Positions 3,079-11,385 of a DNA stretch of 21,048 nt are shown here, piece after piece. The position numbers and the translations under genes are program-made. This DNA comes from a virus, in the IMG/VR virus record IMGVR_UViG_3300032334_000257, positions 1 to 21,048 of that record; one strand, 5' to 3'. Position 1 is the stretch's first letter; each line of letters begins with the position of its first letter. A model generated the notes under the pieces. That model searched no databases and had not been told where the DNA came from. It worked only from the letters and a program-made list of their open reading frames with translations.

Positions 3079-3376
3079 CCTGATCACCGTCTAATGCTTT
3101 GATTGTTGGGCAAGGATACAGCATACAGCAGTAATCACAAATCTCATAGGACTCAGCATCTTCTTCTCGTGCATGCAACTCACGGACACGCTGGATGGCT
3201 TCAGTCTTTTGCTTGTTAAGTTCCATGTACTGAATAGCAGTTGCGTTCCAGTTTACTTCACCAACTTCAATAGTCCGAATACCGTACAACTCAGCCTCGG
3301 CTTCATACAATCCAGCCTCTTCAGCTTCTCGTATCATCTTGGCTAGTATTTCTTGCCGTGATTCTGTTTCACTCAT
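3068..3376 (-). CDS. Hypothetical protein with H-C-C-C putative zinc tail
   Basis: A 102-residue, Glu-rich, mostly helical protein whose last third carries H68-x11-C80-x2-C83-x5-C89 followed by TIKALDGD. The same arrangement (H-x11-C-x2-C-x5-C, then T-x-KAL-x-GD, with R-x-R-x-LH before it) appears in the 60-residue protein at 6557-6739, so the two are paralogous in this part. Four spaced ligands suggest a small zinc site. The extra N-terminal 40 residues are a charged helix absent from the shorter copy. The start ATG 3376 overlaps the dNMP kinase stop (ATGA), and the gene runs 11 bp into the RuvC-like gene. Its role is unknown; both copies sit directly upstream of a nuclease-encoding segment. 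Confidence 0.72.
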   Translation of the reverse strand: MSETESRQEILAKMIREAEEAGLYEAEAELYGIRTIEVGEVNWNATAIQYMELNKQKTEAIQRVRELHAREEDAESYEICDYCCMLYPCPTIKALDGDQDES

Positions 3377-3903
3377 GCTACTACCAACATCATCTTATCT
3401 ATTAAGTGCTTGAGATTTTCAAGATCACCATCATTCTTAATAGTGAAATCAAATATGTAGTCATCTAGATCTACTTCAGACTTGTGCTTGTTTACTGGGC
3501 CGGTGCCTGGACGCTTTACACGCCAGATTTGACCACCTAAGTCACGAATAGCATCTGCTTCATTCTTGTAACGTACATCGGTAATGATGTAATTCTTAGC
3601 AGGATCTAGCCCCCCTAGAGTCCTATCTACCCAAATGTTTTCCCCAAAAATTTCACGACCAGCTTCTGTACCCATGCGCTGTAAAAGCATACGTAACTCT
3701 GCGCTCATACGCTTAGCTTTTTCCCAACCCATTAGCATTACAAGATCTTTAGCCCGAACACCTACACCAATCATAGGATTTAGAGCCAGTACTGCTTCGC
3801 GCAAAGTATCTGCAAAAGCTGCACGCTCAAATCCATACTCAGCAGCAAGTTTAGCTATTTCATCCTTACCTGACTGTGCGTAGCCTGATACTCCAATAAT
3901 CAT
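3373..3903 (-). CDS. Deoxynucleoside monophosphate kinase
   Basis: A 176-residue P-loop kinase that resembles the phage T4 gp1-type dNMP kinase family. The P-loop is GYAQSGKD (residues 7-14), with GKD in place of GKS/T as is usual in this family. Later landmarks are the LMGWEKAKR...LLQRMGTEAGRE helices, ENIWVDR, and ITDVRYKNEADAIR (Walker-B/lid region). A C-terminal strand FDFTIKNDGDLENL is typical of dNMP and dephospho-CoA type kinases. It would phosphorylate dNMPs to dNDPs in the cytoplasm and so supply phage DNA synthesis. It starts at ATG 3903 through a TAATG overlap with the upstream gene and ends in an ATGA overlap with the next. Confidence 0.88.
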   Translation of the reverse strand: MIIGVSGYAQSGKDEIAKLAAEYGFERAAFADTLREAVLALNPMIGVGVRAKDLVMLMGWEKAKRMSAELRMLLQRMGTEAGREIFGENIWVDRTLGGLDPAKNYIITDVRYKNEADAIRDLGGQIWRVKRPGTGPVNKHKSEVDLDDYIFDFTIKNDGDLENLKHLIDKMMLVVA

Positions 3904-8180: not shown

Positions 8181-8639
8181 TTACTTAACTTTATGAACTT
8201 CTTTAGTTTCATTTTTAATTAGATTAAATGATATAAGAGACGTCAGACATGATACTGCAGTTGAGATAGCTACGTTCTTAAATAAGTGGTACAAAACCTC
8301 AGTAGTCATGTCATCATCACTGTCTTCTTCTTCACCATCATGTTCAATGTATGCAGACTTTACTTCAGTAAGTGAAAACGCCTTGGCATTTATTTCTGCG
8401 CAGATAACAGCGTGGGCTTCAAGAATAGGAAGAAGTTCTTTAATCTTTTCTAAACGGTCAAAGCTTGCGGAGATCTCCATTTCCGATACTTCTTCGGACA
8501 ATGGGTTTAGTCCCATAGCCGCTGCAATGGTCTCTGGGCTATCTACTCCAGAATCATAAATAATATTTCTAATTAATGTTGTTGGAGGTAAGTGAACTAG
8601 CGTTACCTTCTTTTTTGAACGACGTCTAAAGATACTCAC
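8181..8639 (-). CDS. Conserved-looking phage protein of unknown function
   Basis: A 152-residue protein. A basic start FRRRSKKKV is followed by LVHLPPTTLIRNIIYDSG, a helical core with MGLNPLSEEVSEMEI, then an acidic stretch DGEEEDSDDD (about 100-109). The C-terminal part is hydrophobic (about 115-140, ISTAVSCLTSLISFNLI) and could be a membrane segment or a buried helix. I recall the 'HLPPTTLIRxxIYDS ... E-E-x-x-EME' segment from other actinophage genomes without an assigned role. The start GTG 8639 overlaps the polA stop as GTGA, so it is translated right after PolA. The mixed charge and a possible membrane anchor are the notable points. Confidence 0.65.
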   Translation of the reverse strand: MSIFRRRSKKKVTLVHLPPTTLIRNIIYDSGVDSPETIAAAMGLNPLSEEVSEMEISASFDRLEKIKELLPILEAHAVICAEINAKAFSLTEVKSAYIEHDGEEEDSDDDMTTEVLYHLFKNVAISTAVSCLTSLISFNLIKNETKEVHKVK

Positions 8640-10621
8640 TTTGCGTCACCCCACCTATCTACTATTTTTACATCGGCTAATAATGGAACACTTAATACGT
8701 GAATACCTTCCATGGCATTACGAATACAGTTTGCAGTTTCTTCTGCAAGCTCCTTAGGAGCAATAGTAACCAATTCATCATGAACAGTCAAAATTAGATT
8801 TGCTTGGTCTGGCACCATGTGATGTGCCCTAACCATGGCTACTTTGATAAGGTCTGCTGCTGATCCTTGAATAACTGTATTAAACGCCTGACGTTCAGCC
8901 CGAGCACGCTGCCACATCTCCCTGGCCCTAAGATCAGGCAGGTAACGACGGCGCTTCAAGATAGTAGTTGCGTAAGGAATTGGGGTCCTGTTACGGCTCT
9001 CGGCAATAACTGTCTTACGGTATCTATCAATAGATGCAAACTTACGGGCAAACCCAGTCAACAAGTCCTGAGCCTCTTTTACGGAGCACCCAATCTGTTC
9101 AGCAATCTTTTCAGGGCCTACCCCGTAAGCCATAGCAAGTACAAGTACCTTTCCTGCCTTGCGGTTTACGCCCATAGTGTCACCTACAGTTGTGTAGATA
9201 TCTCCACCCTCAAGGTAGGAACTGCGCATAATGCGGTCCTGGGAGAATGAAGCAATGATGCGAGGCTCAATCTGAGAGTAGTCAGCCACAATCATAGAGT
9301 GATCTTCTGGTGGTATAAACAGATTGCGGATAGCCTTACCGTTAGAGGTGTGTGGGGCTGGTACGTTCTGAAGATTTGGATTACGGGACGAGAATCGACC
9401 TGTCTCTGTTCCATACTGTACAAAGTCAGTGTGTACCTTGCCGTCAAGTAGTAGACTCTTCTTGGCTACGACCTTGGACTTACCTCCAGTTGTACGAGTA
9501 ATGTCACCACCTAGGTATGGGATAACGTAAGTAGTCAATAGCTTATTCAAATCTGAGTATTGGATTAGACCATCAATGACGGCATCCTTGCCCTCAAACG
9601 CACGTAGAGCGGGCTCGGCTACAGAGTAGTCATGGCAAGTAGTAGTCTCTCCAGACTCTGCTTTCTTCTTACCGTTAGGAGTTAGTACCTTTGGGCGAAT
9701 TCCTCGGCCACCATCTTTCTTAGATGTGTACAAAACCTTTTGCTTTTCCTGAACACTATTAATATTAAATACATACTTAGCGGCTGTGTAGATGGTAGTA
9801 CGGCACTCTTCTAGCTGAGCCTCAAGATCTACCTTGAGTTGGCTAAGAGATGGTACGTCGATGTTTGCCCCAGTAAGTTCCATATTGCAGATAACTTCTA
9901 AGACGTCCATCTCTAACTTAAAGACTTTGTCTAGGCTGTTCTCAGCTAGCTGTGCTTGTAACTTCTTCCACAGTTCCCACGTCCAGTAGGCATCAAGAGC
10001 GGCATATGTTGCTACTTCATCAAAGCTGTGCGCTTCAATTTCTTTACCTACACCCTTGACCATGTCGTAATCAAACTCACGCTTCAGGCAATCATCTAGG
10101 CCAAGCGAGATACGGTTACGATTATCTAAAATAAAAGTTGCGTTCAATGTGCAAGCAAATGGGGCAGCGGGTAGACCGCCCATGTACTTTGCAACACTCT
10201 GCAAGTCAAACTTTACGTTATGCCCTACTTTAAGAATACTCTCATTCATAAAGATAGGCTTCAAAGCCTTAAAGACTTCCCCAGGAAATAACTGCTCTGG
10301 GGCTTCATCAAACACCTTGGTAGCTTTCTTCTCGTCCTTGCTGTAATCCTGCGAACGTAAAGACAAGCCCTTGGCCTGTCGAAGATTTGCAGACGGAAGT
10401 AAAGGGTAGTCTGTGCGTATGTAGTTGCCATTGGGGTGCCCCATAGGGATTACATCGCATCTACCATCAATGGCTAGTGAGATCCATACGACTCTATTTT
10501 GACGGGGGTCGCCACGATGGTCGCCCATAGTTTCTACGTCAAATACAAACGAGTCAACTTTAGAATATGCCTCTACAACTTCAGCAAGTTGTTCTGAGGT
10601 CAAAACAATATTTGGTTCCAT
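8636..10621 (-). CDS. polA: DNA polymerase I (family A) with 3'-5' exonuclease, no 5' nuclease
   Basis: A 661-residue family A DNA polymerase. The exonuclease domain has FDVETMG (D28, E30), GHNVKFD (D139) and YAALD (Y206, D210). The polymerase domain has motif A VADYSQIEPR (D447), motif B RKAGKVLVLAMAYG (K491, Y499) and motif C TVHDE (D615). The 5'-3' exonuclease domain of cellular Pol I is absent, as is usual in phages. The position matching E. coli Phe762 is Leu (L495), and the motif A tail is EPR rather than ELR. A longer frame starts at ATG 10654 inside the leader hairpin; ATG 10621 is preferred since AGGAG sits five bases upstream. It is the likely replicative polymerase with the primase and DnaB encoded upstream. 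Confidence 0.95.
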   Translation of the reverse strand: MEPNIVLTSEQLAEVVEAYSKVDSFVFDVETMGDHRGDPRQNRVVWISLAIDGRCDVIPMGHPNGNYIRTDYPLLPSANLRQAKGLSLRSQDYSKDEKKATKVFDEAPEQLFPGEVFKALKPIFMNESILKVGHNVKFDLQSVAKYMGGLPAAPFACTLNATFILDNRNRISLGLDDCLKREFDYDMVKGVGKEIEAHSFDEVATYAALDAYWTWELWKKLQAQLAENSLDKVFKLEMDVLEVICNMELTGANIDVPSLSQLKVDLEAQLEECRTTIYTAAKYVFNINSVQEKQKVLYTSKKDGGRGIRPKVLTPNGKKKAESGETTTCHDYSVAEPALRAFEGKDAVIDGLIQYSDLNKLLTTYVIPYLGGDITRTTGGKSKVVAKKSLLLDGKVHTDFVQYGTETGRFSSRNPNLQNVPAPHTSNGKAIRNLFIPPEDHSMIVADYSQIEPRIIASFSQDRIMRSSYLEGGDIYTTVGDTMGVNRKAGKVLVLAMAYGVGPEKIAEQIGCSVKEAQDLLTGFARKFASIDRYRKTVIAESRNRTPIPYATTILKRRRYLPDLRAREMWQRARAERQAFNTVIQGSAADLIKVAMVRAHHMVPDQANLILTVHDELVTIAPKELAEETANCIRNAMEGIHVLSVPLLADVKIVDRWGDAK

Positions 10622-10638
10622 TTTCTCTCCTAATGGTT

Positions 10639-10681
10639 GTAGGGAGCCAGACATGAGAGGAGGTTGTGTCTGGCTCCCTAC
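10639..10681 (-). promoter_or_regulatory. Perfect 15-bp hairpin in the polA leader
   Basis: On the minus strand GTAGGGAGCCAGACA pairs perfectly with TGTCTGGCTCCCTAC (10667-10681 with 10639-10653) around a 13-nt loop that contains CCTCCTCTC. The stem ends eight bases before the polA AGGAG (10626-10630). No U-tract follows, so it is not a standard terminator. The loop could pair with the polA ribosome site over about five bases and itself looks like the 16S anti-Shine-Dalgarno. Likely roles are control of polA translation or mRNA processing between the ssDNA-binding protein and polA. Confidence 0.75.
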
Positions 10682-10689
10682 GAGGGATA

Positions 10690-11385
10690 TTAGTCTTCTG
10701 GGAGTTCGCGTGCAATCTCTGAAAGCTCAGCCTTGGTTGAGATTCGAATTGAATCTGGACCAAGTGGCTTCAGAGTGCTGAGAGTAGCGTTAACATCAGC
10801 CAGTTCTAAATCCCAATCATCAGACAGATCGCGATCCTTAACCATCATGATGGAGTAAGTAGTCTTGGTGCCAACACCAGACTTGCTTACAGCCCAGAAC
10901 ATGCGGTCAATAGGACCTGTCTTAGGATCGTTGTTTAGCTTTTCAATCTGACCACACAGACGAAGACCTACAACCATAACCTGTACGGTTGGCTCGTCTT
11001 CAGACAGGTTTACAACGCTAAAAGCAAACTTGCTATCAGCCTTATTACCTGCACGACATAGTGGGCAGTCGGGAGTACCCAAGCAAACAAATGACTTCTT
11101 GCCCTGACGCTGTACCCAGTGCTGGGAGAAACTCATCGGGTCTGGAGAGAGAAACTTGATGAGTTGTACTTCTTCGTCAAACTTAAAATCGTTTGCGTAT
11201 GTTTTGGTTGCCTTGGCTTGAGCCTTGCGAGCTTCGCCCCATCCAACCTTGATTACAGAAGCTGCAGGAGCATCTTCGTTTTCAAATACATCTTCTGATT
11301 CGTAAACAGAATCTGCAGGTGTACGTAGTGAGTCAATGTCTTCATCAGAAAGGTATGAAGAGATATCGGTATTGCGAGCATCCAT
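10690..11385 (-). CDS. gp32-like single-stranded DNA-binding protein
   Basis: A 231-residue protein with the layout of phage gp32-like ssDNA-binding proteins. An acidic N-terminal arm (residues 1-40) is followed by GWGEARKAQAK, then YANDFKFDEEVQLIKFLSPD, then a zinc site W/H89 ... C101-x5-C107-x2-C110 (CLGTPDCPLC), and FAFSVVNL with a beta-rich OB region. The tail ends acidic (ELPED). It would cover ssDNA during replication and recombination with PolA and RecA. The start is ATG 11385 with GAGG seven bases upstream. The gene sits just before polA and is separated from it by a strong hairpin, which might let it be made in greater amounts than polA, as ssDNA-binding proteins often are. Confidence 0.82.
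   Translation of the reverse strand: MDARNTDISSYLSDEDIDSLRTPADSVYESEDVFENEDAPAASVIKVGWGEARKAQAKATKTYANDFKFDEEVQLIKFLSPDPMSFSQHWVQRQGKKSFVCLGTPDCPLCRAGNKADSKFAFSVVNLSEDEPTVQVMVVGLRLCGQIEKLNNDPKTGPIDRMFWAVSKSGVGTKTTYSIMMVKDRDLSDDWDLELADVNATLSTLKPLGPDSIRISTKAELSEIARELPED

Follow-up and report, generated by a model that had tools for sequence, protein, structure and literature searches.

The ssb–polA Intergenic Region

The window analyzed here, which is the whole stretch of 21,048 nucleotides of viral DNA, carries on its minus strand an ssDNA-binding-protein-like gene (ssb; 10690–11385, an ORF of 231 aa) upstream of polA (8636–10621), in a neighborhood of replication genes that also includes a primase, a DnaB-like helicase and a RecA-like gene. 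The ssb product was matched to phrog_14578 (E = 6.7e-6), with a gene of Streptomyces phage BRock as its distant match. The polA product is a family A DNA polymerase with a 3′–5′ exonuclease domain (PF00476, E = 4e-87; PF01612, E = 1.5e-17), and it comprises 661 aa when read from the ATG at 10621, which follows the Shine-Dalgarno (SD) sequence AGGAG (10627–10631, minus strand) and is the start retained in relatives. An in-frame ATG at 10654, placed inside the hairpin described below, leads ORF callers to add 11 residues to polA (672 vs 661 aa), and is probably a wrong start. Because the window holds two WhiB-like genes (PF02467; 5867–6175 and 15737–15979, both on the minus strand) and the phage has Streptomyces phage relatives, its gene content suggests that the host is probably an actinobacterium. 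The family carrying the hairpin consists of freshwater phages, probably with actinobacterial hosts.

Between the two genes, the minus strand presents a hairpin of 43 nt that reads GTAGGGAGCCAGACA-CAACCTCCTCTCA-TGTCTGGCTCCCTAC. Its 15-bp stem (10681–10667 facing 10653–10639) is perfect, as the initial annotation had claimed, with 15 of 15 positions complementary, and encloses a loop of 13 nt. The 5′ arm (GUAGGGAGCCAGACA, 10667–10681) and the 3′ arm (UGUCUGGCUCCCUAC, 10639–10653) were defined by pairing and covariation, and the loop (CAACCUCCUCUCA, 10654–10666) indeed contains the CCTCCTCTC reported at first, with CUCCU at 10662–10658 providing an exact 5-bp complement to the polA SD (CUCCU/AGGAG). 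The stem begins 8 nt downstream of the ssb stop codon (10692–10690) and ends 7 nt (10638–10632) before AGGAG, and not eight bases as had been counted; the same layout was observed in relatives.

The predicted minimum free energy of the minus strand between 10600 and 10700 was –33.7 kcal/mol (z = –4.7), and none of 200 shuffled sequences was as good. Among stems enclosing 3–25 nt, this is the only one in the whole window that pairs perfectly over 15 bp, and 200 first-order Markov simulations of the window produced no such stem, the longest perfect stem having a median of 9 bp and a maximum of 13. These simulations, together with the conservation in relatives, ruled out a chance hairpin. The stem is directly followed by AACCATTA, which agrees with the absence of a U-tract noted earlier, and a full intrinsic terminator, with a GC-rich stem and a U-tract directly behind it, is unlikely because the window has no U-tract. 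The U-tract was also missing in most relatives, a minority of them having short U runs. Another hairpin, intergenic and terminator-like in a scan of the plus strand, was located at 1697–1718 of the window, with 9 bp and a 4-nt loop (AGGTAGCCCCGAAGGGCTACCT).

Conservation and Covariation of the Stem

Relatives were collected from IMG/VR by means of the SSB-like and PolA proteins and of profiles, and annotated phages were added to them. Related IMG/VR phages yielded more than 100 distinct hairpins in the same ssb–polA gap, and Streptomyces phages provided further ones; the hairpin was present in this gap in nearly all phages with PolA 66–99% identical, as well as in a second clade. Across the family, the stem was mostly 10–20 bp long, lying mostly 6–17 nt from the stop codon and mostly 4–14 nt from the SD. 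With a covariance model, roughly a single copy was recovered at polA in each phage contig, plus a few weak extra matches, and this approximate single copy per genome ruled out a multi-copy regulatory repeat. A pattern scan of all IMG/VR returned 62 hits, 52 of them ahead of polA (51 by direct PolA match, and L271 via the SSB at the contig end). No relatives were found in bacterial genomes, and the Rfam search gave sub-threshold chance matches only, with no family at the gathering score, so that no known RNA family could be assigned.

Several variants of the arrangement were also observed. Two phages (L093 and L097) carry a tandem pair of hairpins before polA, each loop bearing CUCCUUUU, and in four others (L105, L107, L112 and L113) a second small hairpin is placed within the loop before polA, leaving CCCTCCCTTCT still single-stranded. 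In L019 and L027 (about 3331–3501) and in phage GiJojo (L036, 2561–2995), inserted small genes separate the hairpin and its SD from polA, for instance an ORF that starts with TTG and carries a CxC-x2-CxxC-like stretch in the first two, and genes 130 and 131 in GiJojo; the hairpin remains beside ssb in all three.

The stem sequence itself has been extensively replaced. The first set comprised 57 distinct hairpins, in which the inner 5′ arm had a median identity of 40% and each inner stem position used several Watson-Crick pair types. The inner ten pairs of these hairpins included about 37 G·U and 0 A·C on the gene-sense strand, the hairpin finder having tolerated up to 2 mismatches of any kind, so that A·C was possible in principle. 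A MAFFT alignment of all 57 hairpins placed the stems out of register and was not used for pair statistics, which were obtained from an anchored script for the 57 hairpins and from an alignment of one clade. In the 31 aligned members, with 3 rows still one column off, 96% of the cells were paired, 11 of 12 pairs presented changes on both sides, and the covariation score was 0.588 against 0.229 for shuffled alignments, none of 500 shuffles reaching it. Compensatory stem changes in related phages, which had been proposed as a check on the hairpin, are therefore strongly evident in both data sets. Since pairing was kept despite the turnover of the stem, with G·U but no A·C on the sense strand, these comparisons indicate that the hairpin is a conserved structured RNA element read in the sense of the genes. 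A role as a DNA hairpin in replication, for instance as a site for primase or for single-strand initiation, would suit a location among the primase, helicase, RecA-like and polA genes, but it is extremely improbable, as the strand-specific wobble pairs, the fixed spacing to the stop codon and the SD, and the matching of loop and SD detailed below point to sense RNA.

Matching of the Loop and the polA SD

All 57 loops of the first clade carried an invariant CUCC, the polA SD there was GGAG, and the loop flanks were often ACCUCCUUUCU, identical to the 3′ tail of 16S rRNA (the tail was checked in genomes). The CUCC-clade conserved flank UUUCU is unexplained by pairing with the polA SD. Pure mimicry of the 16S tail, attractive from this clade alone, was weakened by the second one, whose loops have CCCC(U), not CUCC, and whose polA SD is AGGGG. 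Because the loop and the polA SD both changed there, the second clade distinguishes 16S mimicry from SD complementarity.

Considering 99 distinct elements, the loop matched its own polA SD over a mean of 4.83 bp, compared with 4.18 bp after re-pairing (0/5000), and this held after thinning to <80% (0/5000) and <75% (1/5000) PolA identity. At least four Watson-Crick pairs between loop and SD could be formed in 95 of 127 distinct elements. The ssb SD was taken as a control, and its match to the loop was not better than re-paired (1028/3000). Moreover, the phages with CCCC loops had GGGG in 35 of 38 polA SDs vs 0 of 38 ssb SDs, and GGGG stood to GGAG-type SDs as 18 to 47 in other genes of this clade and as 20 to 1 in polA (Fisher p = 3e-8). 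The suggestion of the initial annotation that the loop could pair with the polA ribosome site gained support from these data, since loop and SD differ together between clades (CUCC/GGAG vs CCCC/GGGG), in a co-switch of cores that represents a single deep event on the PolA tree. Within the CUCC clade no covariation of loop and SD was observed, and within the CCCC clade it was modest (7/10000) and faded on thinning (268/5000 at 90%), tests on independent pairs having no power. C-rich loops were retained in L320, L331 and L338, three members of the CCCC clade whose SDs are of the GGAG type.

Five phages (L047, L050, L051, L060 and L080) have a loop, UCUCCUUUC, with an 8–9 nt complement to the ssb SD (GAAAGGAGA). 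Pairing of the loop with the distant ssb SD was rejected, this fit being found in a few phages, with no covariation overall or within clades. The same complement, together with the tail ACCUCCUUUCUA, a genuine 16S sequence in many bacteria of which the loops share as many as 12 nt, would be expected of a trans-acting decoy. Such a decoy would mimic the 3′ end of 16S rRNA and target either other mRNAs, in the way that sRNAs with C-rich loops target SDs, or a tail-binding factor. Nevertheless, this is very improbable, as the CCCC clade leaves the tail sequence when its polA SD changes, the ssb SD does not covary with the loop, and in 11 phage contigs the full complement AGAAAGGAGG hardly occurs apart from the loop, which also dismissed a trans target carrying it.

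Lineages Retaining the Hairpin without the Pairing Loop

The hairpin was also kept with loops that do not pair, such as GUUU (L115) and UACAUU (BRock and L037). In one lineage (L323, L370, L415, L430 and L447) a conserved ACGUGC hexaloop replaces the SD-complementary loop before polA, and in another (L332, L392 and L393) UUGAC is found in its place. Because several lineages keep the hairpin and not the pairing loop, either the hairpin is useful even without that loop or these cases represent losses.

The conserved ACGUGC and UUGAC loops of some lineages would be in line with a translational operator bound by a protein, comparable to the operators of T4 gp43 and gp32, in which PolA, the SSB-like protein or another phage factor would recognize the stem and the pyrimidine-rich loop and repress polA. 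The element has the same position as the T4 gene 43 operator (PMC3014915), and the invariance of the loop core on a variable stem would be equally accommodated. On the other hand, an operator alone would not predict a loop core that changes with the SD between clades, and the T4 operator is short, with a loop that is not complementary to the SD. This explanation is possible, albeit unlikely, and it constitutes the main rival or partner of loop–SD pairing, with which it could work jointly.

The persistence of the hairpin in lineages without the pairing loop would also be compatible with an attenuator, a partial terminator or a stabilizer of mRNA ends, which would end or protect part of the ssb messages and lower polA transcription. 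In fact, the hairpin lies close behind the ssb-like gene and stays there despite the small ORF inserts of L019, L027 and GiJojo, and short U runs follow the stem in part of the CCCC clade and in some near relatives. Yet, besides the window itself lacking a U-tract, no more than 3 T occur among the 8 nt that follow the stem in 39 of 55 CUCC members, and such a role leaves the match of the loop to the polA SD unexplained, so that it is regarded as improbable.

A Candidate Pseudoknot Leader Gating polA Translation

The best reading of these comparisons, and one that is reasonably likely, is that the hairpin is a cis-acting leader of the pseudoknot type, whose loop would sequester the polA SD and gate translation of the polymerase. 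Comparison across phages establishes that the hairpin exists, that its stem covaries, that it occupies a fixed position, and that the loop and the polA SD match each other between clades. In the proposed mechanism, a cis-acting RNA element would sit in the ssb–polA intergenic mRNA, where the long stem would expose its loop for pairing with the complementary polA SD; this pairing, which has an H-type pseudoknot topology, would compete with the 16S rRNA tail. Translation of polA would thereby be held low or conditional relative to the upstream ssDNA-binding-protein gene, and the hairpin would probably act as a built-in brake or switch on the amount of polymerase. We infer that the pairing would form in the cell and be repressive, that both genes would share one transcript, and that ribosomes, SSB or PolA may modulate the pairing. 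Based on footprint size and the observed spacings, a ribosome terminating on ssb is estimated to sit just upstream of the stem.

The predicted energy of loop:SD pairing was at least as favorable as that of the 16S tail with the SD (medians of –7.8 vs –7.3 and of –9.45 vs –6.8 kcal/mol). In a simple A-form distance model, 48 of 49 CUCC members could form both helices without any fraying, and most members of the CCCC clade could do so with 0–3 open pairs, stricter path lengths requiring more fraying; in much of the latter clade, the linker is too short if the stem stays intact. That the long stem sterically prevents pairing in cis was unsupported once a few base pairs were allowed to fray. The initial annotation had proposed either translational control of the polymerase or a processing site, and the first of these is favored by the stem covariation and the between-clade match of loop and SD, while neither the processing site nor a T4 gp43-like autoregulation through binding of PolA itself found support here.

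A bolder and rather doubtful extension of the pseudoknot leader would be a widespread and so far undescribed RNA switch of phages. Its 16S-tail-like loop would gate the replicative polymerase by sensing conditions in the infected cell (free 30S subunits, or the level of SSB or PolA) through competition for the polA SD, and the 16S-like flank ACCUCCUUUCU would serve a separate function in addition to pairing with the SD.

The control of phage polymerase translation is well known mainly from T4-like phages, and a conserved, covarying leader ahead of family A polymerases in common freshwater phages, whose stem evolves fast and whose loop follows the SD, would add a second example unrelated to the first. 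The natural CUCC/GGAG and CCCC/GGGG pairs supply ready-made compensatory variants.

Comparison with Known Systems

Searches of the literature for phage hairpins complementary to the SD gave no match, and the element was compared with several systems that share part of its features. In translational riboswitches with H-type pseudoknots, such as the SAM-II, SAM/SAH and preQ1 types, a hairpin loop pairs with the downstream SD and ligand pockets are conserved. The loop–SD pairing proposed here is alike, but the stem sequence is unconserved and no ligand is suggested. The 6C RNA of Actinobacteria, which has two such hairpins, and other sRNAs with C-rich loops act in trans on G-rich sites; the display of a C-rich loop by a hairpin is common to them and to the present element, which differs in having no Rfam match.

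Inverted repeats immediately before ribosome sites are also found in actinophages, as the SAS/ESAS of cluster K mycobacteriophages, in which the ESAS are conserved 17-bp repeats with variable spacers and many copies per genome (PMC3203893). Here, by contrast, there is about one copy, the stem sequences diverge and it is the loop that is conserved.

The operator of T4 gene 43 is a hairpin-loop of 18 bases (16 in RB69) with the loop UAAC, bound by gp43, and a pseudoknot is not known there (PMC3014915). As in the phages studied here, an RNA hairpin lies just before the ribosome site of the phage DNA polymerase, in a cluster of replication genes; however, gene 43 encodes a family B-type polymerase and not a family A one, and instead of a short hairpin-loop of 16–18 bases with a UAAC-type loop, the window has 43 nt, a far longer stem and the SD-complementary loop CAACCUCCUCUCA. 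The analogy with gene 43 is thus one of position. The leader of T4-type gene 32, which encodes the SSB, contains a pseudoknot 67 nt upstream that nucleates gp32 binding and is itself not SD-pairing (PMC3014915). A pseudoknot topology before the ribosome site of a replication gene would be common to both, with the difference that the loop described here would pair with the SD of the neighboring polA gene. The closest known system in position is the T4 gene 43 operator, and the closest in topology are the gene 32 pseudoknot and the SD-sequestering riboswitch pseudoknots.
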